Part shown: in pieces, positions 10,101 to 62,852 of the stretch
Layout: every line of letters begins with the position of its first letter
Numbering within the stretch: position 1 is the first letter of the stretch
Assembly: GCF_014647755.1 (NCBI RefSeq)
Contig: NZ_BMPU01000001.1
Location: 682,001 to 746,000 of the forward strand
Reading direction: 5' to 3'
Length of the DNA stretch: 64,000 nt
Origin: Porphyromonas pasteri
Lineage (GTDB): Bacteria > Bacteroidota > Bacteroidia > Bacteroidales > Porphyromonadaceae
Program-made: the position numbers and the translations under genes
Notes under the pieces: generated by a model
Seen by the model: the letters and a program-made list of their open reading frames with translations, nothing else
Database searches by the model: none
Told to the model about the DNA's origin: nothing

Positions 10101-10177
10101 GTTATATTACTTTTCGATGAATGTTATATTACTTTTCGGCGAAGGTTATATTACTTTCTGATGGAGGTCGTAATACC
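10101..10177 (+). repeat. 22-bp periodic array, core GTTATATTAC
   Basis: GTTATATTAC starts at 10101, 10123 and 10145, and a degenerate GTCGTAATAC at 10167: four units with exactly 22-bp spacing. Linkers TTTTCGATGAAT, TTTTCGGCGAAG and TTTCTGATGGAG are also similar. The core is an imperfect palindrome (GTnATATnAC). It lies between the HAD gene stop and the tRNA-Arg promoter; bases 10181-10250 hold nothing recognisable. Confidence 0.8.
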
Positions 10178-10250
10178 GCCTTCTGAAAGCCCTCCCATGT
10201 AGCCCCCGAAGTCTCCCACTTTCCCACAAGGAAGGAGTCCAAAGAATTCG

Positions 10251-10258
10251 TATCTTTG
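10251..10258 (+). promoter_or_regulatory. Promoter -7 box for tRNA-Arg
   Basis: TATCTTTG followed by CG, 65 bases before the mature tRNA-Arg 5' end. Confidence 0.6.
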
Positions 10259-10323
10259 CGCTGGCTACGCCACTATGGAAGCGGAATTTCACGTATTCTT
10301 GATAGTGACGCTGTCAGCAAAAT

Positions 10324-10397
10324 GGCTCAGTAGCTTAGTTGAATAGAGCGTCAGATTCCGGTTCTGAAGGTCGAGGGTTTGAGTCCCTCCTGGGTCA
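10324..10397 (+). tRNA. tRNA-Arg (anticodon CCG)
   Basis: Full cloverleaf of 74 bases: acceptor GGCTCAG/CTGGGTC (with G-U pairs), D arm GCTT...GAGC, anticodon stem TCAGA/TCTGA around the loop TTCCGGT giving anticodon CCG for codon CGG, T arm GAGGG-TTTGAGT-CCCTC, discriminator A. The CCA end is not encoded. The T loop TTTGAGT departs from the usual TTCGAnT at the third position. Confidence 0.95.
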
Positions 10398-10445
10398 CAT
10401 CCGCATAGCTCCTTGAGTTTGTTTCTGCAAACCGAGAAGAATGCG

Positions 10446-10453
10446 TATCTTTG
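10446..10453 (+). promoter_or_regulatory. Promoter -7 box for tRNA-Ser
   Basis: TATCTTTG 50 bases before the tRNA-Ser 5' end; the tRNA-Arg and tRNA-Ser genes therefore look separately transcribed. Confidence 0.6.
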
Positions 10454-10503
10454 CAGCGATTTCGGAGGATGGAGAGAGTCTCCTCTTCTCGTGATCGACC
10501 ATC

Positions 10504-10588
10504 GGAGAGATGGCAGAGTGGTCGAATGTGGCGGTCTCGAAATCCGTTGTACCGCAAGGTACCGGGGGTTCGAATCCCTCTCTCTCCG
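10504..10588 (+). tRNA. tRNA-Ser (anticodon CGA)
   Basis: Class II tRNA of 85 bases: acceptor GGAGAGA/TCTCTCC with discriminator G, anticodon loop CTCGAAA giving CGA for codon TCG, long variable arm with the GTACC-GCAA-GGTAC hairpin, T arm GGGGG-TTCGAAT-CCCTC. The anticodon stem GCGGT/TCCGT has an unusual U31-U39 mismatch next to the loop. No encoded CCA. Confidence 0.95.
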
Positions 10589-10595
10589 CGGTAAA

Positions 10596-10628
10596 GGGTG
10601 CAAATCGCTTGCGATTTGCACCCTTTTT
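10596..10628 (+). terminator. Intrinsic terminator after tRNA-Ser
   Basis: Perfect 13-base inverted repeat GGGTGCAAATCGC (10596-10608) with GCGATTTGCACCC (10611-10623), followed by TTTTT. The two-base loop makes it nearly a perfect palindrome. Confidence 0.9.
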
Positions 10629-10656
10629 CTATACCTAAGGAAATGAGGGTAAGCCC

Positions 10657-11250
10657 CTACCCTTCTTCGCTGAGATGGGTAAGGGCTTCGGTGAGGGTGT
10701 AGTGCTGAGCGGTAGCTTGGGGCTTTCGGTAGCGGCGGATCAAGCCTCGGAGGGGGCGCCACAGCGAACTAAAGTCCCGCACACTACGCGTGCTGACTTC
10801 GCCCTCCTCGCTTACCAGCGTGCAGCGATTGCTCCCAGAGAGCGGGCTACCAGCCACACGCGTCACGAAGTGCTGGCCCCCACGCTTGTCCATGATGAGC
10901 GCAGCATCACACAGCGTCCAGAGCTCAATGTACGCACCCAGTGTCGCCTCGGGGAAGGCGCCCAGATACGCCAAGCCATTCAGCTCGGCTATGGGAGTGA
11001 GGAACATTCGGCTATCCGAAAGAATGCGCTCACGATACCGCCACAAGAGGGGCACGCTTTGGCGAAAGAGCTCCGTAGCCTCGGTACGTGCTTCGGGCGT
11101 CAGTGGTGCGGGGAGAGATGTAGCGGGATAGAGACGTAGCAGGGTACCATCCATACGACGCAGCTGCCCCTCGGGGTGGTCAGTCGAATAGATAGTGTGG
11201 GAGCGGGATGCGAGCTCCTCTGTCAAAGTAGATGTAGCTTGGGTAGTCAT
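10657..11250 (-). CDS. Protein of unknown function
   Basis: A 197-residue protein starting at the ATG at 11250 (MTTQATSTLTEELASR), directly preceded on its strand by an A-rich AAAATAAAAGGT stretch; the frame extends upstream but without a sensible start. No signal peptide or membrane segment is visible. It is moderately rich in Leu, Arg and Thr with predicted mixed alpha/beta content, and has a RYRERIL-SDSRMFL central part and a Ser/Arg-rich C-terminus. I do not recognise a family. It lies 198 bp downstream of the helicase-nuclease gene on the same strand; that gap contains two short hairpins (ACGGCTCGTAGCCGT and CTTCCCTTCCTGGGAAG) and no clear promoter box. Its product could be functionally linked to the helicase, but nothing in the sequence proves it. 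Confidence 0.6.
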   Translation of the reverse strand: MTTQATSTLTEELASRSHTIYSTDHPEGQLRRMDGTLLRLYPATSLPAPLTPEARTEATELFRQSVPLLWRYRERILSDSRMFLTPIAELNGLAYLGAFPEATLGAYIELWTLCDAALIMDKRGGQHFVTRVAGSPLSGSNRCTLVSEEGEVSTRSVRDFSSLWRPLRGLIRRYRKPQATAQHYTLTEALTHLSEEG

Positions 11251-11448
11251 ACCTTTTATTTTTAGATGAGACGATACGTCCTCTCGTGTCAGGCAGGGAG
11301 TCTGCCTCTCGCACCTTGCCCCGTATGCGGATAGGTTGCGGACGGCTCGTAGCCGTTCTCTGGACACTTCTGATGAAAGACACTTCCCTTCCTGGGAAGC
11401 ACCACGAAGATAGGCTTTTTCTAATAATCGCAGTGCCTTACTGCAGGC

Positions 11449-14166: not shown

Positions 14167-14336
14167 ATCTCTGAGTAAAAATCAACCAATTACTATAAGT
14201 CTCTGCAGCTATCTTCCACTGCGAAGAAGCCCCTTATGAGGCATCTAAATTACCAAGAATAGTAGATAGTTCTGCGGGGGCTGAGGGCGGCGTAGCAGGG
14301 CGTTTGTTCGGGACGGGAGGAGGCTATGGCGGGAGG

Positions 14337-14480
14337 ACGTATACCTTGCGGGGGCAAAACGTATACGTTTCATGCCCAAGACGTATACGTTTCACACTCG
14401 AAACGTATACGTTTTCACCGCCAAACGTATACGTTGTGCTCGCGATACGTATACGTTCTGATGAGAAGAGGTATACGTTC
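14337..14480 (+). repeat. 22-bp periodic array, core AACGTATACGTT
   Basis: Seven units of the palindrome ACGTATACGT start at 14337, 14359, 14381, 14403, 14425, 14447 and 14469: every step is exactly 22 bp. The five inner units are perfect; the first reads ACGTATACCT and the last AGGTATACGT, so decay is at the edges. Flanking A and T residues extend most cores to the 12-bp AACGTATACGTT. The 10-bp linkers differ (for example TTCATGCCCAAG, TTCACACTCGAA, TTTCACCGCCAA). The array lies 170-315 bp upstream of the helicase start and downstream of the first receptor gene. Bases 14167-14336 and 14481-14580 show nothing further. Confidence 0.92.
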
Positions 14481-14590
14481 GGGCCGTGCAACCGATGAAG
14501 CAGGCACTTTGAGCGAAGGAGAAAGCAGAGTGAAGGCGCAAGCTTTGGGTGAAGGAAGTAGCGGCCTGCATACAATCGAGGGATACAGCA

Positions 14591-14629
14591 AGCCCCCAGC
14601 AGGCGCCACGAGGACGGCTGCTGGGGGCT
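14591..14629 (-). terminator. Terminator of receptor copy 1
   Basis: Inverted repeat AGCCCCCAGCAG (14591-14602) with CTGCTGGGGGCT (14618-14629), 42 bp downstream of the stop of the gene at 14672. The same hairpin follows copy 2. Confidence 0.75.
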
Positions 14630-14671
14630 TTGCTTTAGCGGGAGTGACCCAAGAGCGGGAGCGGCAGGACG

Positions 14672-17080
14672 CTACATACGCGAGCGAAGATCCTTGGCAC
14701 TCTGGCGCTCATCCTTACCCTCGATCGAGGCACCGAAGGAGTAGGTCATGCTCAGCGTGCAGAAGGTGTTATTCGACTCGTTCTTGACACGCATCTGGTA
14801 GGCGGGGGTATTGATATTGATGTAGGGCTCGGTCCAGATGAGGTTGTAGGCATCTGCAGCGATACGGAGCTTCCCATCGAGGAGCGTATAGGATAGGCCT
14901 GCATTAGCCGTGAAGGAATGCGAGTGCCTCAGACCTCCGTCATCGTAGCGTGGGCTCGCGTAGTAGATGGAGCAGGTACCTTGGAGCGTCTTACTGCGAT
15001 TGAAGAAGAAGGTATTGTTCATGCTGAAGCTATAGTTTAGACCTGAGCCTCCATAGAGCGAGGACACATGGGCATCAAGCTTCGTTTCATTATACCAAAG
15101 GCGCTGGGAGATGTAGGTCTGGAAGAAGCTGACTTTATTGAAGAAGTAGCTATTCTCCAGCCCAACGAGCCAAGTCTTCTCGGCATTTTCATAGGTGTAG
15201 CTCCCGCGGTTCGTCGCAGGATCCAGGCGTATCACCTGCGTAATCCCGTCCCATAGGTAACCCCCATTGAGCTGGAAGTTCAGCGCACCGAGGAAGGTAT
15301 ATCCGAGGGCAAGCCGTGCGCGCTTCGCAGCACGTAGGTCCTCCTTCCCTCGCATGATGGTGTACTGATTCTCGTAATTAGCGAAGGGAGAGAGCAGACT
15401 GAAATCCGGACGGTTGAGACGGATGGTACTGCTGAGGCTGAAGGCATGGCGATCATTGGGATTGTAGCCTAAGAAGAGCGTGGGGAAGAGGTTGATATAG
15501 CTCCTCAAGTTCTCCAGACGACGGCCGTTATTCTCCCCTGCCGTATGGGTGTACTCCATACGAAGCCCCGTGCGAAGACTCCACGTCTCAGAGAGGGGAT
15601 GTTTGAAGTCCGCATAGAGCGCATAGACCTGCTCATCGAAGCGAATCTTATCGTGGTGCTCACCCATCGTACTCGCTGCATCATAGTCACTACTATTGCT
15701 GATGCGCGTCCAAGACCCCTTTGCTCCGAAGCCCAGCGTCCCCTTACCGAGGGGCTCGACATAGTCCAGGCTGGCGATGTAGGAGTCGATATGCTGATCG
15801 GTCAGCGCATTGAAGCGGAAGTCCGAGCCCGCGATAGGAGTACCCTGAGGGGTTAGGCCCGAGGAGGTAAAGCTACGATCCTCCCGATTGCGGTAGCCGA
15901 CATAGTCCACGTCCCACGATAGGCGGCGCTTAGGCACCCCCTTGAAGGTCTTCTCCATGTGGGCGTTCGCCGAGATGTACCTCCCATGATTGATGTTCAC
16001 CGCAAGCCCTGGAAGGGAGCGAAGGAGCTGGTACGAGCCATCGGAAGTGATGCTATAGTCGCGAGAGTCATTCTCACGATGCGCACTATCCTGCTGTGGC
16101 GTATAGGAGGCGCTGAAGCCGAGTGTGAGCTCTGGAGTGAAGGCGTAGTCCAGCGCTCCACGTACGTTGAAGTACTTATCCCGCCCAGTGTAGTAGGTAT
16201 CACTGACATAGTAGGTCTTCTGCTGAGGATAGGTACGATAGGTACGTGGGTCACCATCAAACAGCCCCGTACCGGCACCGAGGTCAAGGGAGGCTGTGAC
16301 CTTGCCCTGATTATAGTTGAAGCTCGTACTGAGATCATAGCGAGGCCGCAACTTTTTGATCCCAAAGCCTGGCGTGACACTTCCCCCGAAGAAGTCATTC
16401 TTAGCTTTCTTCAAGACGAGGTTCAAGACGCCCGCATCTCCTTCGGCTTCGTACTTAGCAGGTGGTGTGGTCAAGATCTGAATCTCCTGAAGGTCGGACT
16501 GTGGATAGGAGCGCAGGAGACTAAGGAGAGCGGTACCTGAGAGGCGCACGCGCTTATCGTTGACGAGGACGATGACCCCACCCTTGCCGATAAGACTAAT
16601 GCCACTATTCGTGACATTCACCCCAGGGGTCTGCCGTAGGACATCCAGTGCCGAGGCGGCGGCAGGCGCTATCTGGGTCGCATCGAAGACCAGACGGTCA
16701 GCCTTACGCAGCATGATCGGGCGGCGCCCTGTGACTTGGACAGCAGAGAGCTGCTTCGTCTCCTCAGTGAGGAGGAGTTCGCCGAGGTCAAGAGCACCAG
16801 CGATGGTGAGCGTCTGATGATAGGGTCGGTAGCCCAGCGCACGTACCTCAAGGAGGAAGGTGCCCTCAGGAGCCTCCAAGCGGAAAGCCCCATGCTCGTC
16901 GCTGGTCGTCCCCACGACGAGGCTACTATCAGCAGGATGGCGCAGGAGGACGTTAGCAAAGTCCACGGGCGTGCGGTCGGTCGTCTTCTTTAAGGTGCCC
17001 TGTACAGCGACGGTCGTCTGCGCAAGAAGGCTACCAGAAGATAGCGCAAAGGCGACTAAGAGCAAGTGAATGTGTTTCAT
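14672..17080 (-). CDS. Outer membrane beta-barrel family receptor (TonB-dependent-receptor-like), copy 1
   Basis: An 802-residue outer membrane protein. Order: signal peptide (MKHIHLLLVAFALSSGSLLA-Q), a carboxypeptidase-regulatory-like beta-sandwich (about 22-105, starting VAVQGTLKKTTDRTPVDFANV), a plug-like domain (about 110-225, with VQVTGRRPIMLRKADR and IQILTTPPAKYEAEGDAGVLN) and a large barrel with aromatic-rich strands up to the C-terminus. This architecture is that of the OMP_b-brl_3 group of Bacteroidetes proteins related to TonB-dependent receptors. The last residues pass the barrel (GKDERQSAKDLRSRM), a short charged tail. Substrate unknown. It is the downstream member of a tandem pair and, unlike copy 2, has an 18-base T tract in its promoter (minus strand), suggesting phase-variable transcription. 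Confidence 0.88.
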   Translation of the reverse strand: MKHIHLLLVAFALSSGSLLAQTTVAVQGTLKKTTDRTPVDFANVLLRHPADSSLVVGTTSDEHGAFRLEAPEGTFLLEVRALGYRPYHQTLTIAGALDLGELLLTEETKQLSAVQVTGRRPIMLRKADRLVFDATQIAPAAASALDVLRQTPGVNVTNSGISLIGKGGVIVLVNDKRVRLSGTALLSLLRSYPQSDLQEIQILTTPPAKYEAEGDAGVLNLVLKKAKNDFFGGSVTPGFGIKKLRPRYDLSTSFNYNQGKVTASLDLGAGTGLFDGDPRTYRTYPQQKTYYVSDTYYTGRDKYFNVRGALDYAFTPELTLGFSASYTPQQDSAHRENDSRDYSITSDGSYQLLRSLPGLAVNINHGRYISANAHMEKTFKGVPKRRLSWDVDYVGYRNREDRSFTSSGLTPQGTPIAGSDFRFNALTDQHIDSYIASLDYVEPLGKGTLGFGAKGSWTRISNSSDYDAASTMGEHHDKIRFDEQVYALYADFKHPLSETWSLRTGLRMEYTHTAGENNGRRLENLRSYINLFPTLFLGYNPNDRHAFSLSSTIRLNRPDFSLLSPFANYENQYTIMRGKEDLRAAKRARLALGYTFLGALNFQLNGGYLWDGITQVIRLDPATNRGSYTYENAEKTWLVGLENSYFFNKVSFFQTYISQRLWYNETKLDAHVSSLYGGSGLNYSFSMNNTFFFNRSKTLQGTCSIYYASPRYDDGGLRHSHSFTANAGLSYTLLDGKLRIAADAYNLIWTEPYININTPAYQMRVKNESNNTFCTLSMTYSFGASIEGKDERQSAKDLRSRM

Positions 17081-17150: not shown

Positions 17151-17253
17151 TAGCCCCCTTAAACACCTGTGAAACACCGCTATTACATAGTCCTCTCCTC
17201 ACCCTCCTGCAGTAGACGAATGAGCGAAAGCGGAGCTGCGATAGACTACAGCA

Positions 17254-17292
17254 AGCCCCCAGCAGCCACCACGAGGACGGCTGCTGGGGGCT
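17254..17292 (-). terminator. Terminator of receptor copy 2
   Basis: AGCCCCCAGCAG (17254-17265) pairs with CTGCTGGGGGCT (17281-17292), 40 bp after the stop codon of the gene at 17333; duplicate of the hairpin at 14591-14629. It separates copy 2 from copy 1, so copy 1 needs its own promoter. Confidence 0.75.
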
Positions 17293-17332
17293 TTGCTTTA
17301 GCGGGTGTGACCCAAGAGCGGGAGGCGGGGCA

Positions 17333-19738
17333 CTACATACGGGAGCGGAGCTCTTGGGCACTCTTGCGCTCGGACTTGCCTCGGATAGGAGCACCGAAGG
17401 AGTAGGTCACACCGAGGTTGAGGGTGAGTGCACTATTCTCGTTGTTGGCATACATCTCATAGTCGGGAGTCGTGATATTCAGACGGAGATTATTGCGGAG
17501 GAGGTTGTAGGCGTCGAGAGCGAAGCGAAGCTTCCCTTGGAGGAGCGTGTAGGATAGGCCCGCTCCGCCAGAGATGACGTGCCCCATATGGAAGCCTCCA
17601 TCGTAGCCAGGTGTCCGATAGTAGAAGGAACAGGTCCCCTGGAAGGTCTTACTGCGGTTGAAGAAGAAGGTATTGTTGAGGCTGACATGATAGCTCAAGC
17701 CTGCTCCCCCGTAGAGCGAAGTGGACTCAGGGCCGATCTTCATATCAGAGTACCAGAGACGCTGGGAGATGTAGGTCTGGAAGAAGCTGACCTTATTGAA
17801 GAAGAAGCTATTCTCCAGGCCGAAGGTCCAGGTCTTCTCGGCATTGTCATGCGTGATGCTCCCTTGATTCGTCACGGGATCGAGGCGGATGACCTGTGTG
17901 ATACCATCCCAGAGATAGCCACCGTCGAGCTGGAAGTTCAGTGCCCCAAGGAAGGTGTAGCCGAGAGCAAGCTGGGCACGCTTAGCAGCACGCAGATCTT
18001 CTTTCCCTCGCATGATGCTGTACTGGTTCTCATAGCTGGCAAACGGCGAGAGTTGGCCGAAGTGGGGGCGATTGAGGCGGACAGTACCATTGAGGCTGAA
18101 GGCATGGCGGTCGTTGGGGTTGTAGCCTAAGAAGAGCGTGGGGAAGACGTTGAGATAGCTCTTGAGGTGCTCCAGACGACGGCCGTTGTTTTCGCCTGCC
18201 GTATGGGTGTACTCCATACGAAGACCCGTGCGGAGATCCCACTTGTCGGAGAGCGGATGCTTGAAGTCAGCATAGAGCGCATAGACATGTTCGTCGAAGG
18301 TGATCTTGTCGTGACGCTCACCCATGGAGCTCTTGGCATCGTAGTCGCTTCGGTTGGTGGTGCGGGTCCACGTCCCCTTAGCCCCAAAGCCCAGCGTCCC
18401 CTTACCAAGCGGCTCAGTATAGTCCAGGCTCGTGATGTAGGAGTCGGTGTGCTGATCGGTCAGAGCATCGAAGTGGAAGTCCGACCCTGGGATGGAAGTA
18501 CCATTAGGCATCAAGCCACGGGAGGTGAAGTTGCGCCCCTCTTGGCTTCGATAGCCTACATAGTCGGCATCCCACGAGAGACGACGCTTGGGAGCGGACT
18601 TGAAGCTCTTCTCAAGGTGAACATTCGCCGTAGTGTATTGGCTCTTGTCCGTCTCGTCGGCCACACCAGGGAGCAGGCGTAGGAGTTCACGCTCACCACT
18701 GGGGAGGATGCGATAGTCTCGGCTATCATTCTCCCGTCGAGAATTTTCCTTCTCTGGGCTGTAGGATATGCTCGCCCCCATAGAGAGCTCTGGGGTGAAG
18801 GCATAGTCTAGCCCCGCACGAAAGTTGAAGTAAGGGCCCTGCCCCGAGTAGGCGGTCTCACTCGAATGGAAAGTACCCTGCTTGGGATAGGTGCGGTAGG
18901 AATCTAGGCGACCATCATAGCCTGAAGAGCCTCCTCCGAGCTGGAGAGAAGCGGTGACCTTGTCCTTCTTGTAGTTGAGGTTGGAAGTGAGGCTATACAG
19001 GACCTTATCCTTACGAAGTCTGAAGCGAGGAGCGATACTTCCTCCGAAGAAATCGTTCTTAGCCTTCTTGAGGATGATGTTCAGCACACCGGCATTCCCC
19101 TCGGCTTCGTACTTAGCGGGCGGGGTGGTGAGTATCTGGATCTCCTGGAGGTCAGACTGCGGATAGGAGCGGAGGAGGCTGATCAGAGCAGAGCCCGAGA
19201 GACGTACCCGCTTGTCGTTGATGAGGACGATCACCCCGCCCTTGCCGATGAGGCTGATGCCGCCGTCGGAGACGTTCACCCCAGGGGTCTGGCGCAGGAC
19301 ATCCAGAGCCGAGCTGGCAGCGGGAGCGATCTGCGTAGCGTCGAAGACCATACGGTCGGCCTTGCGGAGCATGATGGGGCGGCGCCCTGTGACTTGGACA
19401 GCGGAGAGCTGCTTCGTCTCCTCGGTGAGGAGGAGTTCGCCGAGGTCAAGTGCACCAGCGATGGTGAGCGTCTGATGATAGGGTCGGTAGCCCAGCGCAC
19501 GCACCTCGAGGAGGAAGGTGCCCTCGGGAGCCTCCAAGCGGAAAGCCCCATGCTCGTCGCTGGTCGTCCCCACGACGAGGCTACTATCAGCGGGATGGCG
19601 CAGGAGGACGTTAGCAAAGTCCACGGGCGTGCGGTCGGTCGTCTTCTTTAAGGTGCCCTGTACAGCGACGGTCGTCTGCGCAAGAAGGCTACCAGAAGAT
19701 AGCGCAAAGGCGACTAAGAGCAAGTGAATGTGTTTCAT
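17333..19738 (-). CDS. Outer membrane beta-barrel family receptor (TonB-dependent-receptor-like), copy 2
   Basis: An 801-residue paralogue of the gene at 14672-17080 with the same domain order. The start is the ATG at 19738 (MKHIHLL...), as in copy 1; the frame is open for another 102 codons upstream but that stretch is intergenic sequence and part of a repeat. Residues 1-129 are identical in the two copies, then differences accumulate through the plug (RMVFDA for RLVFDA, NVSDGG for NVTNSG) and are frequent in the barrel strands and loops (for example SSGYDGRLDSYRTYPKQGTFHSSE against DGDPRTYRTYPQQKTYYVSD-type sequence). The tail GKSERKSAQELRSRM matches copy 1. Function probably uptake or surface binding of a related but distinct ligand; inference. 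Confidence 0.88.
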   Translation of the reverse strand: MKHIHLLLVAFALSSGSLLAQTTVAVQGTLKKTTDRTPVDFANVLLRHPADSSLVVGTTSDEHGAFRLEAPEGTFLLEVRALGYRPYHQTLTIAGALDLGELLLTEETKQLSAVQVTGRRPIMLRKADRMVFDATQIAPAASSALDVLRQTPGVNVSDGGISLIGKGGVIVLINDKRVRLSGSALISLLRSYPQSDLQEIQILTTPPAKYEAEGNAGVLNIILKKAKNDFFGGSIAPRFRLRKDKVLYSLTSNLNYKKDKVTASLQLGGGSSGYDGRLDSYRTYPKQGTFHSSETAYSGQGPYFNFRAGLDYAFTPELSMGASISYSPEKENSRRENDSRDYRILPSGERELLRLLPGVADETDKSQYTTANVHLEKSFKSAPKRRLSWDADYVGYRSQEGRNFTSRGLMPNGTSIPGSDFHFDALTDQHTDSYITSLDYTEPLGKGTLGFGAKGTWTRTTNRSDYDAKSSMGERHDKITFDEHVYALYADFKHPLSDKWDLRTGLRMEYTHTAGENNGRRLEHLKSYLNVFPTLFLGYNPNDRHAFSLNGTVRLNRPHFGQLSPFASYENQYSIMRGKEDLRAAKRAQLALGYTFLGALNFQLDGGYLWDGITQVIRLDPVTNQGSITHDNAEKTWTFGLENSFFFNKVSFFQTYISQRLWYSDMKIGPESTSLYGGAGLSYHVSLNNTFFFNRSKTFQGTCSFYYRTPGYDGGFHMGHVISGGAGLSYTLLQGKLRFALDAYNLLRNNLRLNITTPDYEMYANNENSALTLNLGVTYSFGAPIRGKSERKSAQELRSRM

Positions 19739-19771
19739 TTCAAGGAGTGCGGTGCTAATGGAAGTGGTACC

Positions 19772-19779
19772 GAAAGGTA
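19772..19779 (-). promoter_or_regulatory. Putative -7 box of receptor copy 2
   Basis: TACCTTTC on the minus strand, 33 bases upstream of the ATG at 19738, at the same place as in copy 1. It deviates from TAnnTTTG at the last base. Confidence 0.4.
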
Positions 19780-19925
19780 GTGATTTTTCAGAAAAACAGC
19801 ACCATGAATGCCTGCGACACACCGCAATTATACAGTCCTCTCCCCTCCCTCCTGCAGTAGACGAGCGGGCGACAGTAGAGCTGCCTGAGCGAGGGAGATC
19901 CCATGGGTGAGATCGCATAGGATAG

Positions 19926-20195
19926 CCCAGCTCCCCGATATACCCCTCCGAAGTGACCGAGCAAGTCCTTTGACTTATCGCAAGTATTCCTCTTATCCAG
20001 CGCAGGGAAAAGTGTCCTTCTCGTGAAGAAAAAAGCGCTTTCACGTAGTGGTTTTTCTCTATCTATGTACGTAGTCTTAAAGACCAGGCACGCAAATCCA
20101 AATATCCACGTACGTAGATATTAGGGCCACGTACGTAGCCCAAACTTTTCTACCACTCGTCCGCAACTTTTATCCCTACACGGAGCAACAACCTA
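19926..20195 (+). repeat. Dispersed intergenic element, copy B (5'-truncated)
   Basis: From CCCAGCTCCCCGATATAC to GGAGCAACAACC it aligns with copies C and D almost without gaps. Conserved parts: CTTATCGC-AGTATTCCTCTTATCCAGCG, the imperfect hairpin GAAAAGTG...TTCTCGTGAAGAAAAAAGCGC...TTCACGTAGTGG, TACGTAGTCTTAAAGACC, and two CCACGTACGTAG palindromes. The first 75 or so bases present in C and D (GACT...GAGAGTCC to GCATCGCACG) are missing, the element being joined to the upstream flank of the duplicated receptor gene. Confidence 0.85.
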
Positions 20196-20268
20196 ATACA
20201 GGAATCAAGAGAAAGCTATATAGCTCTACCCACGTACTCATATAGGTCAGCCCTTCGACCAATATAGG
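20196..20268 (+). repeat. 22-bp periodic array, core ATATAGG/AGCTATATAGCT
   Basis: ATACAGG at 20196, ATATAGC at 20218, ATATAGG at 20240 and 20262: four units, each step exactly 22 bp, directly abutting the right end of element copy B. Bases 20269-20414 up to the next promoter contain no further units. Confidence 0.75.
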
Positions 20269-20414
20269 CTCACACCATCCCTCCGACAAGGAGCATATCC
20301 ACCCATACCTCCTCCCCCGAGAAATCACAGCGAAGACGAGGCGCTTACGAAGGGAAAAAGCCCCCGTCTGCTCTGTGGGGAAGGCCTGACCCAAGAGAGC
20401 ATACAGACTTTTAG

Positions 20415-32587: not shown

Positions 32588-32705
32588 AACCGTATGAATG
32601 TGCACATTTATACGTATCAACCTACGAATTTATACGTATTAATCTTCAGATTTATACGTATTAATCGCCGAAATAATACGTATTAATTCCCACATTAATA
32701 CGTAT
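32588..32705 (+). repeat. 22-bp periodic array, core TAATACGTATTA
   Basis: ATACGTAT starts at 32610, 32632, 32654, 32676 and 32698 (all steps 22 bp), preceded at 32588 by the degenerate AACCGTAT. Flanks extend the core to TTATACGTATTAA or TAATACGTATTA. The linkers are AT-rich and partly alike. The array stands in the 820-bp gap between the flavodoxin operon and the YfhO gene. Confidence 0.92.
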
Positions 32706-32733: not shown

Positions 32734-32867
32734 TCGGCTTCTTCCTTATGAAGATGCACGAACTTCAGGAAGAAACTTCACCCACGTAAGCTGGTTCCCT
32801 CGGCATCTTCCTTATGAATGCACACGAACTTCAAGAAGTGACTTCGCCCACGTAAGCTGCTTTCCTC
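32734..32867 (+). repeat. Two-copy tandem repeat of about 66 bp
   Basis: TCGGCTTCTTCCTTATGAAG... (32734-32799) and TCGGCATCTTCCTTATGAAT... (32800-32867) are imperfect copies; both contain CACGAACTTCA-GAAG, ACTTC-CCCACGTAAGCTG. No reading frame is convincing here. A weak AAGCCC/GGGCTT hairpin with a T run follows at 33005-33048 before the next promoter. Confidence 0.7.
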
Positions 32868-33051
32868 GGTTAGTTGAGGTGTTTCGGTTAAGACAGCACC
32901 GCAGTCAAGGCACCTTCCACCCCATGGGAGGCGCTGCGCGAGATCGTCGTCCATGCCCATGCGCAGTGACTTTCGATGACGAGCCATTAGCATCCTCCGC
33001 TCGGAAGCCCTTTCCTGAGGGCATCACTCACGGTGCATGGGGGCTTTTTAG

Positions 33052-42786: not shown

Positions 42787-42835
42787 AAAGCAAGCGCGGG
42801 CGAATCACCAATGGTGATTCGCCCGCGCTTGCTTT
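42787..42835. terminator. Bidirectional terminator between ispF and the GDP-mannose gene
   Basis: Perfect 23-base inverted repeat (42787-42809 with 42813-42835), starting AAAGCAAGCGCGGGCG, three-base loop, flanked by A and T runs on both sides. It sits between convergent genes. Confidence 0.92.
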
Positions 42836-44145: not shown

Positions 44146-44247
44146 AACCAGTACTGGTCACCAAGCAAAGCAGTACTGGTAAGATATATTGACCAGTACT
44201 GGTTCACACTTCGAGCAGTACTGGTCACTTCACCGACCAGTACTGGT
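44146..44247 (+). repeat. 22-bp periodic array, core ACCAGTACTGGT
   Basis: AGTACT centres start at 44150, 44172, 44195, 44217 and 44239: steps 22, 23, 22 and 22 bp. Units 1, 3 and 5 carry the full 12-bp palindrome ACCAGTACTGGT and units 2 and 4 read GCAGTACTGGT, so full and partial units alternate. It lies upstream of manC and downstream of the DUF1294 gene. Bases 43983-44145 contain no other feature I recognise. Confidence 0.92.
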
Positions 44248-44319
44248 TCGTTTCGCCTCTCCATAGGGCCTCTATCTATAAGGCTATTAAAGGAGCTGGT
44301 TGATGCGAAAGAAGCAGGC

Positions 44320-51320: not shown

Positions 51321-51489
51321 ACCACTATTCGTTTGGAGGGCGAACCAATAGTCGTACAGCATACGAACCAGTAGTGGTCGACGAGTGAACCAGTAGTGGT
51401 ATAGCATGCGAACCAATAGTGGTCACGACGTCGACCAGTATTGGTCCGAAAGCGAACTTATATTGGTCGGAGCGGAGACCAATATGAGA
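51321..51489 (+). repeat. 22/23-bp periodic array, core ACCARTANTGGT
   Basis: Eight units start at 51321, 51344, 51367, 51389, 51412, 51434, 51456 and 51478: steps 23, 23, 22, 23, 22, 22, 22. The best units read ACCAGTAGTGGT (twice), ACCAATAGTGGT and ACCAGTATTGGT; the outer ones (ACCACTATTCGT, ACCAATATGAGA) are degenerate. Linkers share CGA before the next core (GCATACGA, ACGAGTGA, GCATGCGA, GACGTCG). The last unit runs directly into element copy C. Confidence 0.9.
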
Positions 51490-51805
51490 CTATTCCGAGA
51501 GTCCTGTCCTTTATTTAGAGTGCTAAGGCATCGCACGCCCAGCTCCCCGATATACCTCTCCGAAGTGATACGAAAGCCCTGCGCCTTATCGCGAGTATTT
51601 TTCTTATTCAGCAGCGGGAAAAGCATCGTTCTCGTGAAGAAAAAAGCATCTTCCCGTAGTGCTCTTCCTCTGTCTATATACGTAGTCTTAAAGACCAGGC
51701 ACGTCAATCCAAATATCCACGTACGTAGATATTAGAGCCACGTACGTAGCCCAAACTTATCTACCACTCGTCCACAACTTTTATCCCTATGCGGAGCAAC
51801 AACCC
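51490..51805 (+). repeat. Dispersed intergenic element, copy C
   Basis: About 316 bp, aligning along its length with copy D (62853-63165) and, from GCCCAGCTCCCCGATATAC on, with copy B. It begins with a short GACT...GAGAGTC inverted repeat and ends with GGAGCAACAACC. Inside are an imperfect hairpin (GGGAAAAGCATCGTTCTCGTGAAG against CTTCCCGTAGTGCTCTTCC, described by its arms only), the palindrome GTCTTAAAGAC, and ACGTAG/ACGTACGT motifs at 51680, 51701, 51719 and 51740. Flanked on both sides by 22-bp arrays of different cores. Confidence 0.88.
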
Positions 51806-51901
51806 AATATAGGTCACTTCACAAAGCTATATAGGAATCAATCCAAAGCTATATAGCTTTCTTCGCCATCCTATATAGCTCGCCTCACATACTCATATAC
51901 C
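51806..51901 (+). repeat. 22-bp periodic array, core AGCTATATAGCT/ACCAATATAGGT
   Basis: ATATAGG or ATATAGC starts at 51807, 51829, 51851 and 51873 and ATATACC at 51895: all steps exactly 22 bp, five units. The third unit is the perfect palindrome AGCTATATAGCT. It abuts the right end of element copy C. Bases 51902-52169 contain no further feature I can support. Confidence 0.88.
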
Positions 51902-52169
51902 TATTATGAGACCATTGTGCAAGCCCACCTCTTCATTACTCGGACCTTCTTTCCTCGAAAATCGGGGTCTTTAGGCTGAGAAGTTCGAAGGAGGAAAGTG
52001 CAAGCTCTGAAGAGATGGCCTTGCGCAATGGTCTTAATATAGGTTAACCTCCCTCCCCTCGGGAGACTGCTCCATAATCCTACCCAAATGGAAGTCTCCT
52101 GGATCACAACTCGAGGAGCGAACAACCTGAGGATAACTTCCCAATCAACAGAGTCCAAAAAAGTTGGCG

Positions 52170-56441: not shown

Positions 56442-56488
56442 CCTCGCAATTACAGAAGCCTTGCCCACGGGCAACGCACTTCACACAG

Positions 56489-56570
56489 GCGGCTGTGGTG
56501 TAATTGGTAGCCACGTCAGACTTAGGATCTGATGCCGCGAGGCGTGGGGGTTCGAGTCCCTTCAGCCGCA
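56489..56570 (+). tRNA. tRNA-Leu (anticodon TAG)
   Basis: Class II tRNA of 82 bases: acceptor GCGGCTG/CAGCCGC with discriminator A, anticodon stem TCAGA/TCTGA around CTTAGGA (anticodon TAG, codon CTA), variable arm TGCCGCGAGGCG, T arm GGGGG-TTCGAGT-CCCTT. CCA not encoded. Confidence 0.96.
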
Positions 56571-56574
56571 CTGA

Positions 56575-56622
56575 AAGCAGGCGATCTACTCTATCGATGA
56601 GTAAGACCGCCTGCTTCTCTTT
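56575..56622 (+). terminator. Intrinsic terminator after tRNA-Leu
   Basis: AAGCAGGCG (56575-56583) pairs with CGCCTGCTT (56608-56616), followed by CTCTTTT. Confidence 0.85.
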
Positions 56623-56642
56623 TATACGTGGGACGCTATTTG

Positions 56643-56674
56643 TTTGGTAAATGCCCTACCTTGGCTTACCTTTG
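56643..56674 (+). promoter_or_regulatory. Promoter of the thiamine uptake operon
   Basis: TTTG (56643-56646), a 20-base spacer and TACCTTTG (56667-56674) match both boxes of the Bacteroidetes promoter. Transcription would start just before the TPP riboswitch. Confidence 0.75.
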
Positions 56675-56690
56675 CGCCCGAAAGAACTAA

Positions 56691-56778
56691 GGACAAAGGG
56701 GTGCTCACCGCACATAATGGTGAGCTGAGATGATACCCTCAAGACCTGACCCAGATCATGCTGGCGTAGGGATTGTTC
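56691..56778 (+). promoter_or_regulatory. TPP riboswitch (THI element)
   Basis: Conserved thiamine-pyrophosphate aptamer. Closing stem P1 GGACAA (56691-56696) with TTGTTC (56773-56778), then AGGGGTGC, the variable P3 hairpin CTCACCGCACATAATGGTGAG, the pyrimidine-sensor CTGAGATGATACCC, and the pyrophosphate-sensor arm GACCTGACCCAGATCATGCTGGCGTAGGGA (given by its parts). The first possible downstream ATG is at 56821. Binding of TPP should shut off the transporter operon, by sequestering the initiation region or by terminating; no clear terminator hairpin is seen before the ATG. Confidence 0.95.
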
Positions 56779-56820
56779 ATCGACCATTATCTACCCTTTC
56801 CCCTTCAGCTCTGCATTACT

Positions 56821-59133: not shown

Positions 59134-59151
59134 TCTCTACCTTTACGGTCT

Positions 59152-59763
59152 ATGGATCTGACCACTCTCCTCTCCTTCCTCTCCTCGCACGTCCTGGAGC
59201 TCGTCACGCTCGTCGTGTCACTCATCTGGCTGTACCTCGAGTACCGCGCCAGTATCTGGCTCTGGCCCGTAGGTATCATCCTACCCTTGCTATGGATACC
59301 GATCTGCTATCAGAGTCATCTCTACGGCATGCTCGCTATCAATATCTACTACCTCGTGACCAGCATCATCGGCTGGATAGCGTGGCTACGTAAGGGCAAT
59401 GCCGAGGGAGAAGAAGTCCCCATCTCTAATATTCCGGCGAAGGCTGGGGCGATCTACCTCGCCCTGGCCTTCGTGGGTTACGTCGCTCTGCTCTTCCTCC
59501 ATCCCTTCATCCCCGAGTGGAAGCTCCCTTGGGCGGATGGACTCATGACGATAGCCTCGGTCATCGGCATGCTCTGGATGGCACGAAAGTGGCGTCAGCA
59601 CTGGCTCTGCTGGATCATCGCGAATGCTGCTGGCTTCATCGCACTCTACGGAGCGGAGGACTACATCTCCTCCTTCGTCTACGTCGTGAACTTCGTCACC
59701 GCCTTCTTCGGCTACCGCAAGTGGGGGCAGCTGATGAAGCAGCCCGACAAGCACACCGTCTAA
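59152..59763 (+). CDS. pnuT: PnuC/PnuT-family thiamine transporter
   Basis: Inner membrane facilitator, 203 residues with seven hydrophobic helices. The family motif WPVGIILPLLWIPICYQSHLYGMLAINIYYLVTSIIGWIAW (visible in parts: YGMLAIN, YLVTSIIGWIAWLRKG) and the C-terminal NAAGFIALYGAEDYISSFVYVVNFVTAFFGYRKW are PnuC hallmarks. PnuC proteins take nicotinamide riboside; those under TPP riboswitches and next to thiamine pyrophosphokinase (PnuT) take thiamine, which is then trapped by phosphorylation. Eighteen bp after the receptor gene and 16 bp before the kinase. Confidence 0.93.
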   Translation: MDLTTLLSFLSSHVLELVTLVVSLIWLYLEYRASIWLWPVGIILPLLWIPICYQSHLYGMLAINIYYLVTSIIGWIAWLRKGNAEGEEVPISNIPAKAGAIYLALAFVGYVALLFLHPFIPEWKLPWADGLMTIASVIGMLWMARKWRQHWLCWIIANAAGFIALYGAEDYISSFVYVVNFVTAFFGYRKWGQLMKQPDKHTV

Positions 59764-59779
59764 GTAGTCCCCCGACACC

Positions 59780-60451
59780 ATGCGCACCTACCCTCGCTTC
59801 ACTCAGGAGACCCTCCCGCAGACACTCGTCCTCGCGAACGGGGCCTTCCCCACCGCCCCCACGCCCCTTGCGCTCATCGACCACTGGATACTGGGCAAGG
59901 AGGGCTACAGCCTCACCTGCTGTGACGGAGCCGTCAATAAGCTCCGTCGCTATACCGACCGCCTGCCCGATGCGGTCATCGGGGACCTCGACTCGGTATC
60001 TCCTGCACTCAAGGATCTCCTGGCGGGACGCATCCAGCTCTTCTCAGATCAGGAAACCAACGACCTGACGAAGACCTTAACCTATCTCCATTCGCGCTAC
60101 GGGAAGCAGGCCATTACTCTTCTTGGTGCCAGTGGCGGACGCGAAGACCACCTCCTTGCCAACCTCGCACTACTCCCAACCTACGCCCCCCTTGTCGAGG
60201 ATCTCGTGATGCTCACCGACGAAGGCTACTTTCTCCTCATCACCGAGCCCTCCACGATCGAGGTCTTGATCGGGCAGCAGATATCGATCTTCAACTTCCA
60301 GCGGACGCCCATCAGCCTCGGCGGTGTGCGCTGGCCCCTCGTGGAGGCTACGCTCCCAGCACTATGGTGTGGCTCACTGAACTGCGCCATCGAGAATCAG
60401 ATCACCGTCCACACCACCGCCCCCATCCTCATCTATCTGGCCAATGTCTGA
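59780..60451 (+). CDS. tnr3: Thiamine pyrophosphokinase
   Basis: Transfers pyrophosphate from ATP to thiamine to make TPP, in the cytoplasm. 223 residues: the catalytic half has CCDGAVNKL, PDAVIGDLDSV (metal-binding Asp), DQETNDLTKTLTYL, and LLGASGGREDHLLANLALL; the C-terminal half (about 150-223) is the thiamine-binding beta domain (YFLLITEPSTIEVLIGQQISIFNF, ending NQITVHTTAPILIYL). Operon position behind a PnuT transporter and TPP riboswitch agrees. The stop overlaps the start of the next gene (ATGTCTGA), so translation is coupled. Confidence 0.93.
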   Translation: MRTYPRFTQETLPQTLVLANGAFPTAPTPLALIDHWILGKEGYSLTCCDGAVNKLRRYTDRLPDAVIGDLDSVSPALKDLLAGRIQLFSDQETNDLTKTLTYLHSRYGKQAITLLGASGGREDHLLANLALLPTYAPLVEDLVMLTDEGYFLLITEPSTIEVLIGQQISIFNFQRTPISLGGVRWPLVEATLPALWCGSLNCAIENQITVHTTAPILIYLANV

Positions 60452-61208
60452 GCAGGAAGCCCTCACCATCGTCCTCGGTGCACTGGATCAGCTCACGCCA
60501 CGGCGCACCGATCCACCCACACTGATGGAGCTGACTCTATGCCTTGGTTATAGCGAGGCTGAGCTGGACGAAGCCTTCACAACCCTCTTCGCTTGCCCCG
60601 CAGACGAAGCTCTCGCGCTCTTCTCTCAAGAAGCACTTCGCCTGCGCCCTGCGGAGTTCCTATCCGACTACCCCACACGACTGACCCTCGACAGCAGCTA
60701 CACAGGGCCCGTCTCCTACTGCTTCTTTCCCTACCGCTTCGGTGAGCTGCTTTTAGCCACTACGCCACTGGGGCTGTGCTACAGCAGTTTCACTCTCAGC
60801 GACTGGCAGGGGACTTACGCTGAGCTACGCCAGCTCTATCCCCAAGCCTCACACGACCTCAAAGTCGAGCACGAATACCTCCAGCAGGCTATTCGCTACC
60901 TCAAATCCCCGACGACGGAGGCTCTTCCCCCACTCCACCTCATCGGCACGCTCTTCCAGCGGAGCGTCTGGATGAGTATGCTCCTCATCCCAGAGGGGAG
61001 CCACACCAGCTACCAAGGCCTCGGCGAGACCTTCGGTATGCCTCAGGCAGCCCATGCTGTCGGGTCAGCCGTAGGAGCCAATCCCTTAGCTCCCTTCATT
61101 CCCTGCCACCGCGTCCTGCCGAAGGAGCACACCATCGGCCACTATCACTGGGGTGTAGCGCGCAAGGCCCTACTCCTCTTACCCGAGCTTCTCACACCGC
61201 AGGCATAG
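60444..61208 (+). CDS. ogt: Methylated-DNA-protein cysteine methyltransferase (Ogt/AdaB-like with N-terminal HTH remnant)
   Basis: Repairs O6-alkylguanine by transfer to its own cysteine. 254 residues: the first 75 (LTLCLGYSEAELDEAFTTLFACPADEAL) resemble a single AraC-type HTH unit or its remnant, as in bifunctional Ada-like Bacteroidetes proteins; residues 80-165 are the ribonuclease-H-like N-terminal domain; residues 170-254 the catalytic domain with TSYQGLGETFGMPQAAHAVGSAVGANPLAPFIPCHRV (acceptor Cys221 in PCHR). It overlaps the thiamine kinase gene by eight bases, putting a DNA repair gene under control of the thiamine riboswitch. The N-terminus is too short for two HTH motifs, so regulatory activity is doubtful. 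Confidence 0.9.
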   Translation: MSEQEALTIVLGALDQLTPRRTDPPTLMELTLCLGYSEAELDEAFTTLFACPADEALALFSQEALRLRPAEFLSDYPTRLTLDSSYTGPVSYCFFPYRFGELLLATTPLGLCYSSFTLSDWQGTYAELRQLYPQASHDLKVEHEYLQQAIRYLKSPTTEALPPLHLIGTLFQRSVWMSMLLIPEGSHTSYQGLGETFGMPQAAHAVGSAVGANPLAPFIPCHRVLPKEHTIGHYHWGVARKALLLLPELLTPQA

Positions 61209-61231
61209 TCCTCTGCACCCTTATCACACCA

Positions 61232-61274
61232 AGCCCCCGCATCGGTTGCCCAAGATGAGCACGATGCGGGGGCT
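61232..61274 (+). terminator. Intrinsic terminator of the thiamine operon
   Basis: AGCCCCCGCATCG (61232-61244) pairs perfectly with CGATGCGGGGGCT (61262-61274), followed by AACTATTT. Confidence 0.85.
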
Positions 61275-61384
61275 AACTATTTATATCCAGTCCACGAACA
61301 AGGAAATCGCACATGGTAAACTATCTGATGCTTAGACGTGTTCTCCTATTGCCTATTTATTTAAGTATTTAATAATATACCCCG

Positions 61385-62719
61385 ATGAGTATCAATCTAC
61401 CTCCTTCTTCTCTCCCCCGCGTCGTCATCGCAGGCGGAGGCTTTGCTGGTCTCAAGCTGGCACAAGCTCTCGATTCTTCGCTCTTCCAGATCATTCTCAT
61501 AGATCACCACAACTACCACCAGTTCCCCCCACTCATCTATCAGGTAGCCTCATCGGGTCTGGAGCCCAGCTCCATCGCCTTCCCCTTCCGTGCTGCCTTC
61601 AAGCGCAAGAAGAACTTCATCTTCCGCCTGGCGAACGTCATCGGCGTCGAGCCTGAGCAGAAGCAGCTCATCACCTCGGTGGGCGAAGTGCCCTACGACT
61701 ACCTCGTCTTGGCATGCGGCGGTACGACGAACTACTTCGGCAATGAGCAGGTCGCCAAGCATAGCCTACCGATGAAGACCCTCTACGAATCGATGAACCT
61801 GCGCAACGTCCTGCTGCAGAACATTGAGAAGGCACTCGTCTCCGACAATCCCGAGACTCGCGAAGCCCTCCTCACGGTAGTGATCGTCGGTGGCGGTCCT
61901 TCGGGAGTTGAGATCGCAGGGGCACTGGCAGAGATGAAGCGCTATGTCCTGCCGAAGGACTACCCCGATATGGAGACGGACCAGTTCAAGATCCACCTCA
62001 TTGACGCTTCGCCCCGCCTCCTGCAGGCGATGAGTGAGAAGAGCTCTCGCACCGCCGCCGAAGGCCTTACCTCTCTTGGCGTCGAGATCCACCACAACAT
62101 GATGGTCACCGACTACGATGGCCGCGTGCTCACCCTCGGTGATGGGACGAAGATGAATACCCGCACGGTCATCTGGGTTAGCGGTATCATCGCCAACACC
62201 GTCGAAGGGATCCAGGCCGACTCCCTCGGTCGTGGCAAGCGTATCCTCGTCGATGGCTACAACGAAGTACAGGGCGTACCCGACGTCTTTGCCCTCGGGG
62301 ACCAGTGCCTCATGACGGCTGACCCAGCCTACCCTCAGGGACATCCCCAGATGGCTCAGGTCGCTATCCAGCAGGCAGCCCTGCTGGCCAAGAACCTCAA
62401 GGCACGCCTCACGGGAGGAAAGCAGCAGACCTTCCGCTACAAAGACCTTGGCTCGATGGCTACCATTGGCCGAAACCGTGCCGTCGCAGAGATTGGCAAG
62501 GCCAAGTGGGGTGGCTTCACCGCCTGGCTCCTCTGGCTCGTCGTCCACCTGCGCTCCATCCTCTCGGTGCGCAACAAGGTCATCGTCCTCCTCAACTGGA
62601 TCTGGAACTATGTGACCTACGACCGCTCGCTCCGCCTCATCCTCAAGCGCAACGTGCCTGTCGATCCCTACCAAGCTCGCCAAGAGCGTCTCGCCAACCG
62701 AGACACCCATGTAGAGTAG
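61385..62719 (+). CDS. ndh: Type II NADH dehydrogenase (NDH-2)
   Basis: Single-subunit, non-pumping NADH:quinone oxidoreductase on the inner face of the membrane. 444 residues with two dinucleotide folds: RVVIAGGGFAGLKLAQAL (FAD) and VVIVGGGPSGVEIAGALAEM (NADH), plus HNYHQFPPLIYQVASSGLEPSSIAFPFR, the conserved quinone-site region AQVAIQQAALLAKNL, and a C-terminal hydrophobic segment (FTAWLLWLVVHLRSILSVRNKVIVLLNWIW) that anchors it. The Bacteroidetes family members look the same. The 176 bp upstream contain the previous terminator and an AT-rich stretch without a clear -7 box. Confidence 0.92.
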   Translation: MSINLPPSSLPRVVIAGGGFAGLKLAQALDSSLFQIILIDHHNYHQFPPLIYQVASSGLEPSSIAFPFRAAFKRKKNFIFRLANVIGVEPEQKQLITSVGEVPYDYLVLACGGTTNYFGNEQVAKHSLPMKTLYESMNLRNVLLQNIEKALVSDNPETREALLTVVIVGGGPSGVEIAGALAEMKRYVLPKDYPDMETDQFKIHLIDASPRLLQAMSEKSSRTAAEGLTSLGVEIHHNMMVTDYDGRVLTLGDGTKMNTRTVIWVSGIIANTVEGIQADSLGRGKRILVDGYNEVQGVPDVFALGDQCLMTADPAYPQGHPQMAQVAIQQAALLAKNLKARLTGGKQQTFRYKDLGSMATIGRNRAVAEIGKAKWGGFTAWLLWLVVHLRSILSVRNKVIVLLNWIWNYVTYDRSLRLILKRNVPVDPYQARQERLANRDTHVE

Positions 62720-62742
62720 GTAGCTGGCATTCCCTCTTACTG

Positions 62743-62780
62743 ATAAGGCCCACCCTGTACGATACAGGGTGGGCCTTATT
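62743..62780 (+). terminator. Intrinsic terminator after ndh
   Basis: ATAAGGCCCACCCTGTA (62743-62759) pairs with TACAGGGTGGGCCTTAT (62763-62779), almost perfect 17-base arms. Confidence 0.9.
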
Positions 62781-62794
62781 GCAAGGTGCCGCAT

Positions 62795-62852
62795 CGACCA
62801 ATATAGGTCAGCGGGCGAAGCTATATAGGTCGCGAAGGCAAGCTATAGGAGA
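62795..62852 (+). repeat. 22-bp periodic array, core ACCAATATAGGT/AGCTATATAGGT
   Basis: Units start at 62797 (ACCAATATAGGT), 62819 (AGCTATATAGGT) and 62841 (AGCTATAGGAGA, degenerate): steps of exactly 22 bp. It abuts the left end of element copy D; another lone ATATAGG stands at the right end of that copy at about 63171. Confidence 0.75.

Follow-up and report, generated by a model that had tools for sequence, protein, structure and literature searches.

The intergenic regions of Porphyromonas pasteri carry dozens of tandem arrays of short palindromes, set at a nearly fixed pitch of about 22 bp and dispersed over the chromosome, and the same layout returns in other Porphyromonas species with a different palindromic core. 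We describe these arrays starting from a window of 64 kb (bases 682001-746000 of contig 1, NZ_BMPU01000001.1, in the nine-contig genome of 2,166,795 bp, GCF_014647755.1), in which a first-pass annotation had reported eight of them; phased repeats were seen in the window sequence at each of the eight places. The constrained palindromes, the freer linkers between them, the fixed pitch, the common number of units, the absence of hairpin covariation and the lasting positions lead us to think, by a small balance of probability, that the arrays are platforms of double-stranded DNA to which a dimeric protein binds, with a specificity that has diverged between species. The main rival is that they belong to transposable, selfish elements.

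Phase, Abundance and Intergenic Location

In a 464-kb sample made up of the window and 20 further stretches of the same genome, pairs of perfect 10-bp palindromes concentrate at distances of 22 bp (24 pairs), 23 bp (4), 44 bp (15), 45 bp (13), 66 bp (5) and 67 bp (16), while every remaining distance from 10 to 80 bp has at most 2; near-identical palindrome pairs were absent from one shuffle. A strict finder (at least three units) returned 28 arrays in this sample, well above chance: one first-order shuffle gave 0, as did control steps of 17-20, 25-28, 29-32 and 33-36 bp. A looser finder, for which no shuffle was run, gave 51 arrays, 31 of them with five units, and a gap-tolerant finder with similar settings, which also bridges one missing unit, gave 66 in 564 kb of this genome and 22 in 360 kb of a close relative, genome G012 (median 82% over 70 reciprocal best hits), with none in shuffles of either. 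Array density is about 1 per 9-22 kb in three genomes.

None of these arrays lies inside a gene (0/51 and 0/66 in P. pasteri, 0/22 in G012, with genes called from open reading frames and codon scores). The 51 arrays are distributed over tandem (31), divergent (14) and convergent (3) gene contexts, with 3 at the ends of stretches, and since these counts follow the intergenic length (51.9, 18.7 and 8.9 kb, respectively) there is no strong context preference. The same figures bear on the idea that the arrays work one by one as local operators, each serving a regulator of the adjoining gene: 45 of the 48 classifiable arrays are in tandem or divergent regions, which hold promoters, but 89% would be expected there from intergenic length alone, the distance from array to start codon runs from 27 to several hundred bp and more, and one core is common to 48 arrays in 37% of the genome. 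We consider local operators improbable.

Core Families in P. pasteri

The first-pass annotation took each locus to have its own perfect palindrome. Instead, the cores are family-specific, and most arrays belong to a few dispersed families. The window arrays at 44146, 51321, 51806, 20196 and 62795 are all variants of one ACC-N6-GGT theme; the GTTATATTAC core recurs, on either strand, at three further loci of the 464-kb sample (L051:10570, L054:9306 and L056:6706), which makes four sampled loci in total; and AACGTATACGTT, together with two TATA-centred cores, is found again in the sister species G012. Nor are the palindromes generally perfect: in in-register unit tables of four arrays, the paired positions per unit are 4-6 of 6 in the array at 14337, 5-6 of 7 at 44146, 3-4 of 5 at 10101 and 3-6 of 6 at 51806.

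The chief family, F1, consists of five GACCAGTACTGGTC units at steps of 22, 23, 22 and 22 bp. A second family, F2, has GACCTATATAGGTC or AGCTATATAGCT at 22 bp and often flanks a MITE-like repeat (MITE, miniature inverted-repeat transposable element) that is described below; intermediates such as ACCAGTAGTGGT and ACCACTATTGGT connect the two. Steps of 23 bp throughout, over four units, occur only at L053:1466 and L061:9001 among the sampled arrays of this genome. The local homogenisation of cores that had been proposed is not needed, one core being common to the whole genome, and descent of every array from a single known repeat, its core unchanged, holds in part inside P. pasteri and fails across the genus.

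The two halves of the F1 consensus are complementary to each other, the left border being A-rich and the right border T-rich. This complementarity prompted us to consider a long hairpin and, more generally, a function of the arrays as hairpins, in RNA or as cruciforms, such as that of terminators or mRNA stabilisers, in line with the long stem-loops predicted for the BrickBuilt repeats of P. gingivalis (PMC4596501). In the 27 best arrays, pairing between the outer linkers was 0.41 within rows against 0.48 with rows shuffled, and flank pairing was likewise no better within rows (0.41) than between rows (0.44). On this row-shuffle test we reject the long hairpin, and because pairing within rows is not in excess in either linkers or flanks, F1 is better described as a dyad-symmetric double-stranded site than as a maintained hairpin. 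Further, convergent gene pairs enclose 3 of the 48 classifiable arrays, against about 5 to be expected from intergenic length, and no Rfam match was found at the window's arrays at gathering thresholds. Hairpin function is thus hard to credit.

Cores and Pitch in Other Porphyromonas

The core changes between species while the layout is kept. An exact F1-type unit-pair pattern occurs as 87 pairs in P. pasteri and 0 in 25 congeners, all searched as whole genomes. CCACGTGG at 22 bp was found 198 times in G001, 260 in G025, 64 in G021, 5 in G023 and 3 in G024, and not once in the 21 other genomes, P. pasteri among them; GATTTATATATAAATC at 22 bp (at most 3 mismatches) 27 times in G006, 34 in G008 and 0 in 24 others; and ACCCATNNATGGGT at 24 bp (at most 2 mismatches) 75 times in G012, 8 in G002, once each in P. 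pasteri and G016, and 0 in the remaining 22. In sampled sequence, the F1 template marks 48 arrays in 804 kb of P. pasteri and 0 in 519 kb of G012, and a 24-bp template marks 24 arrays in the same G012 sequence and 0 in the P. pasteri sample, with one pair elsewhere in that genome. An array was found in 12 of 23 sampled congeners (6-60 kb each), with further cores such as CCAAACTATATAGTTTGG at 23 bp; no shuffle was run for these samples, and the AT-rich or loosely scored arrays of G003, G004 and G022 are possibly chance. Runs of N were dropped, which removed 12 of 31 candidate arrays in G012 as well as N-run rows in a scan outside the genus.

That outside scan gave three arrays in 74 loci: AATATCTAGA-type units five times at 18 bp in a Prevotella (L082:14720), CTCCTTGCAAGGAG four times at 22 bp in a Bacteroidaceae metagenome-assembled genome (L073:20675), and GGCTCGAGCC three times at 22 bp in another Prevotella locus (L101:18209).

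We take G006 to be P. gingivalis, as its BrickBuilt_5-like 23-mers adjoin the arginyl-tRNA synthetase gene (compare Table 1 of PMC4596501), and G008 is probably P. gulae. BrickBuilt repeats have been reported in these two species, with 22-nt repeats mentioned for strain W83 (PMC4596501), and are also named in PMC5771137. Like the arrays here they are intergenic tandem units, their 23-nt unit joining a conserved half and a variable half (PMC4596501). BrickBuilt_5 consists of 18.9 copies of a 23-mer that holds the palindrome TCTCATATGAGA, perfect in several copies and in one-mismatch forms in others, the remainder of the unit being an 11-bp linker. Judged by its letters, then, the published P. 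gingivalis 23-mer is itself a phased palindrome array, although 'palindrom' appears nowhere in the main text of the paper (Klein 2015, PMC4596501). The first-pass annotation's choice of BrickBuilt as nearest precedent was a good lead. The P. pasteri arrays differ from it in their pitch of 22 bp with some 23-bp steps, in their other cores and in having mostly five units, and by eye the BrickBuilt unit AGACCATAGTATCCTCTCATATG has no core in common with them.

Constraint on Cores in Orthologous Arrays

The GATTTATATATAAATC search pattern marks 19 arrays in G006, which were compared with 21 loci of G008; matching flanks gave 12 orthologous pairs, 11 with G008 and one with a locus from a named P. 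gulae (L068). Five units fit all 12 arrays (68-72 of 80 positions), with no neighbouring sixth unit above 9/16, and an unforced chain finds five units in 10 of the 12 and lengthens the other two to 6 and 7 by units that fit poorly.

Over these arrays, 50 of 960 core positions have changed, as have 31 of 289 in linkers and 326 of 2372 in 100-bp flanks. At A/T sites the changes number 29/809 in cores, against 21/212 in linkers (p 5e-4) and 162/1309 in flanks (p 4e-13), and the central TATA of the core shows 1 change in 240; A/T core sites thus evolve 2-3 times slower than A/T sites of linkers or flanks. Since core matching had supplied most of these arrays, we then left out every unit that could meet the search pattern in one species or the other, 35 of 60 in all; at the A/T sites left, cores have 15/334 changes, against 21/212 in linkers (p 0.02) and 162/1309 in flanks (p 1e-5).

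Persistence of Position

Many arrays of the P. gingivalis group have been kept in place over speciation. For the more distant comparison of F1 arrays with the 24-bp arrays of G012, we considered region pairs beside 208 orthologous genes, with at least 100 bp of intergenic sequence in both genomes. Both kinds of array were present in 13 pairs, F1 alone in 15, the 24-bp kind alone in 15 and neither in 66 (Fisher p 0.005), and the 13 compare with 8.6 expected within length bins (p 0.021); by length cut, p was 5e-7 (no cut), 0.005, 0.011, 0.027 and 0.022. Strictly conserved gene pairs gave 1 with both, 1 with the P. pasteri array only, 0 with the G012 array only and 45 with neither, and an earlier one-gene test gave p 0.016-0.72 depending on end and length cut, or 0.001-0.21 with gap-tolerant detection. 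These results suggest that F1 arrays and G012 24-bp arrays share orthologous neighbour genes to a greater extent than expected. The F1 array near 584.5 kb of contig 1 and a G012 array of the 24-bp kind, for instance, adjoin the same gene, not far from a 97% identical gene for what is, by eye, a carboxylase subunit. A MiaA-like gene, so named by eye, likewise has arrays on its 3' side in P. pasteri as well as in Porphyromonas sp. oral taxon 278, which by PorV, SecA, TonB receptors and other genes and by a PorV scan was, with P. catoniae, nearest among the named records returned, a list that possibly omits very near records.

A MITE-Like Repeat and Its Arrays

The MITE-like repeat, of about 320 bp, stands in three copies in the window (Table 1). 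Out of 129 first-look candidates in the P. pasteri genome, 40 matches of about 305 bp were scored, 87-100% identical; the copies are dispersed and, from their length, appear too short to encode a transposase. Of the 30 loci returned, 29 had both ends placed by fuzzy match, and of these copies 25 have at least two phased units within about 125 bp to their right and 9 to their left, as against 40 of 2000 random windows. The left end GAGACTGTTGC resembles the IS5-type (insertion sequence) ends of ISPg4 and MITEPgRS (Table 2 of PMC4596501), and the BrickBuilt IS5-type end sequences are like it as well; the two terminal ends, GAGACTGTTGC and GCAACAACC, match each other only in part. Junctions of the repeat are often inside palindromes, as at 51486/51804, and some have a repeated AATAT (by eye, uncounted). 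The repeat may insert into arrays, or it may itself bring F2 arrays along; we favour carrying because of the fixed phase and the shared right-hand linkers. The genome has three matches to DDE_Tnp_1 (PF01609), one of them with stops.

Inside the repeat, CCACGCACGTAG recurs with a period of about 43 bp at 63037-63119 and of 21 bp at 5372, and an isolated partial copy stands at 5304 (5304-5461); these repeats are reminiscent of the 41-nt repeats of MITEPgRS.

These copies raise the question whether the arrays are in general parts of non-autonomous transposable elements, the palindromes serving as sub-terminal sites for a transposase or host factor and each lineage having had its own burst with its own core. 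Besides the IS5-like copies with phased units and the three PF01609 matches, the borders of F1 arrays favour GAGGGGG..AAAA and TTTT..CCCCTC, which resemble short inverted ends, and four F1 arrays (two in L059, two in L060) were copied within longer blocks, 88-92% alike over 350-390 bp and with nearly identical linkers. In G001, 10 of the 20 elements read consist of two unit triplets, each at 22 bp, set apart by a 64-bp step; a 3 + 4 layout is seen in one, and 9 have no units or decayed ones; some of the flank modules recur, in either orientation. A common left leader is seen by eye at 16 of the 19 P. gingivalis loci, and BrickBuilt was published as a MITE (PMC4596501). Against this, flanking direct repeats of 3-8 bp, as would be left by target duplication, are not in excess at 27 F1 elements; BLAST matches between most F1 arrays end about 20 bp beyond the array; and orthologous arrays remain in place with constrained cores, unlike the leftovers of neutral transposition. 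F1 arrays have no long leader or tail, and the GAGACTGTTGC-type end, which is present in the MITE-like repeat beside F2 arrays, was not seen at their borders. The MITE239 and MITE700 end sequences were not found at the P. gingivalis loci, and a BrickBuilt-type end occurs once each in L253 (one mismatch), L254 and L258. We regard a transposable origin of the arrays as possible but doubtful. The related suggestion of the first-pass annotation, that arrays were copied as units, describes a minority (four of 30 F1 arrays) and not the rest, most of which differ widely in their linkers.

The centre of the G001 elements (L217-L236) often holds two copies of a 21-bp TTTCATTTGATTCCTCCGAAG or its complement.

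Arrays and Neighbouring Features of the Window

The arrays of the window, which also holds genes for PorV, SecA and TonB receptors, are given in Table 1. The claim that all eight share one design stands for the six that pass the looser finder; the arrays at 20196 and 62795 fail it and are 2-4 degenerate units adjoining the MITE-like repeat.

Table 1. Phased arrays and MITE-like repeat copies, by position in the 64-kb window.
Feature	Position	Strand	Description
Array, core GTTATATTAC	10099..10176	.	3 clear units at 22 bp (10099-10156) and a decayed fourth
Array, core AACGTATACGTT	14336..14479	.	7 units, pitch 22
MITE-like repeat, decayed copy	19884..20193	+	71% to the copy at 51495; right end GCAACAACC
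Degenerate ATATAGG array	20195..20272	.	about 4 units at 22 bp, right side of MITE-like repeat
Array, core ATACGTAT inside TTAATACGTATTAA	32607..32708	.	5 units, pitch 22
F1 array, five GACCAGTACTGGTC units	44146..44248	.	steps 22, 23, 22, 22
Array, core ACCA(G/A)TAGTGGT to ACCAATATTGGT	51321..51467	.	7 units, steps 22-23, reaching MITE-like repeat
MITE-like repeat, copy L021	51486..51804	+	ends GAGACTATTCC ... GCAACAACC; splits palindrome ACCAATAT/CAATATAGGT
Right-side array AGCTATATAGCT/ACCAATATAGGT	51804..51902	.	4-5 units at 22 bp; finder 51804-51879, 4 units
Left-side array ACCAATATAGGT/AGCTATATAGGT	62797..62848	.	2-3 units at 22 bp
MITE-like repeat, copy L001	62849..63169	+	ends GAGACTGTTGC ... 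GCAACAACC; internal CCACGTACGTAG repeats

Directly after the array at 32607, a 66-bp unit is present twice (84% matches) at 32734-32869. Elsewhere in the window, two outer-membrane beta-barrel genes (14672-17080 and 17333-20044) share several DNA blocks 76-81% alike, and hairpin-like segments, 96% identical, lie 3' of them at 14584-14661 and 17247-17324. A perfect 24-bp inverted repeat with a 1-nt gap, terminator-like, stands between convergent genes at 42787-42835, and a thiamine pyrophosphate (TPP) riboswitch (RF00059, 66 bits) at 56687-56789, at the 5' end of a TonB-dependent receptor gene.

Discussion

If the arrays are binding platforms, each palindrome would accept a single dimer, and where several palindromes (most often five) follow one another about 22 bp apart, adjacent dimers would build up a nucleoprotein complex cooperatively. 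Since the species keep one layout but have different cores, the protein's binding specificity, or the choice among paralogues, would have been altered by lineage. A role at the level of the chromosome (DNA organisation or insulation) would seem preferable to gene-by-gene repression, because the arrays stand at no constant distance from start codons. Cooperative binding by a dimer had already been put forward in the first-pass annotation and fits best, given the constrained cores and the absence of hairpin covariation; its stricter form, in which all dyads of an array face the same side of the DNA, is not strictly borne out. A step of 22 bp is close to two helical turns, but with 10.5 bp to the turn it rotates the dyad by 34 degrees, which comes to 171 degrees over a five-unit F1 array, and a spiral arrangement, with dyads drifting by that angle at each step, is as likely as a single face.

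Several observations weigh against binding platforms. One array family is tied to the MITE-like repeat, and four F1 arrays were copied within longer blocks. In a gapless alignment of 30 F1 arrays, the core scores 1.72 bits per position, the linkers 0.59 and the 15-bp flanks 0.57, a contrast inflated by the fact that the arrays had been gathered by core match. The G/C sites of the P. gingivalis-type cores are unconstrained (21/151 changes, as against 10/77 in linkers and 164/1063 in flanks), and pitches of 23 and 24 bp in congeners weaken any argument from helical turns. The positional correspondence between P. pasteri and G012 is modest and its region pairs overlap; the test of F1 against 24-bp arrays was partly post hoc, reusing the earlier data that suggested it, and some of the added stretches had been chosen where orthologues of G012 arrays were expected or an F1 array was known. 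No counterpart of the array at 44146 was found at the same place in oral taxon 278. Even spacing, compared with uniform placement, is significant only in G001 (p 0.01, first 1.1 Mb) and not in P. pasteri (p 0.08) or G012 (p 0.41). Finally, no binding protein was found: 18 fast-evolving orthologue pairs looked over by eye gave no helix-turn-helix candidate, with no family scan made, and one of the pairs, HU-like in appearance, has 25% identity and is perhaps not a true pair.

Two other kinds of DNA site invite comparison. The iteron arrays of plasmid origins have a pitch of about 22 bp and are protein-binding repeats; the arrays here differ in being palindromic and in lying, by the dozen, dispersed over the chromosome, and no replication gene was noticed adjoining those of the window. 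The sites of SlmA and Noc in nucleoid occlusion, or those that organise chromosomal domains, are short dispersed palindromes for dimers, single and of conserved sequence, unlike the phased arrays with lineage-specific cores described here.

Repetitive extragenic palindromic (REP) sequences, with their composites, bacterial interspersed mosaic elements (BIME) and REPIN, are likewise short intergenic palindromes, lineage-specific and of high copy number (PMC3733652), and on these grounds the arrays might be REP/BIME repeats moved by a REP-associated tyrosine transposase (RAYT); two genomes with CCACGTGG arrays, G001 and G023, do have Y1 transposase matches. REPs, however, are tagged stem-loops, many of them RAYT-linked (PMC3733652), and the arrays here repeat in tandem at a fixed 22-bp pitch; by eye, neither a loop nor any constant GTAG/CGTC tag is to be seen in the F1 and window unit tables. 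Further, PF01797 is matched in 3 of the 26 genomes (G001, G016 and G023) and is absent from G025, G021, G012, G006 and G008, all with arrays, as well as from P. pasteri, for which reason the RAYT reading was set aside as very improbable. Among the matches listed in a search of open-licence literature (titles and abstract openings), phased palindrome arrays with species-specific cores were not found.

We would tentatively go one step beyond binding platforms, to a proposal that we think may well prove wrong: that pentads of phased palindromes are an unrecognised class of chromosome-organising element, served by a rapidly diverging dimeric protein, in which the core and sometimes the pitch switch genome-wide while many positions persist, BrickBuilt being an offshoot. 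A layout that is kept while its palindrome changes amounts to a natural experiment in how a DNA-binding protein and its sites, dozens to hundreds of them, evolve together, and the arrays give a direct handle for finding that protein. The published P. gingivalis repeat can be re-read as one case of this wider pattern. Should the arrays prove to organise the chromosome, they would contribute to what is known of the nucleoid in the Bacteroidota, where it has been little studied; if they are selfish, they would show selection on internal sites of mobile repeats.

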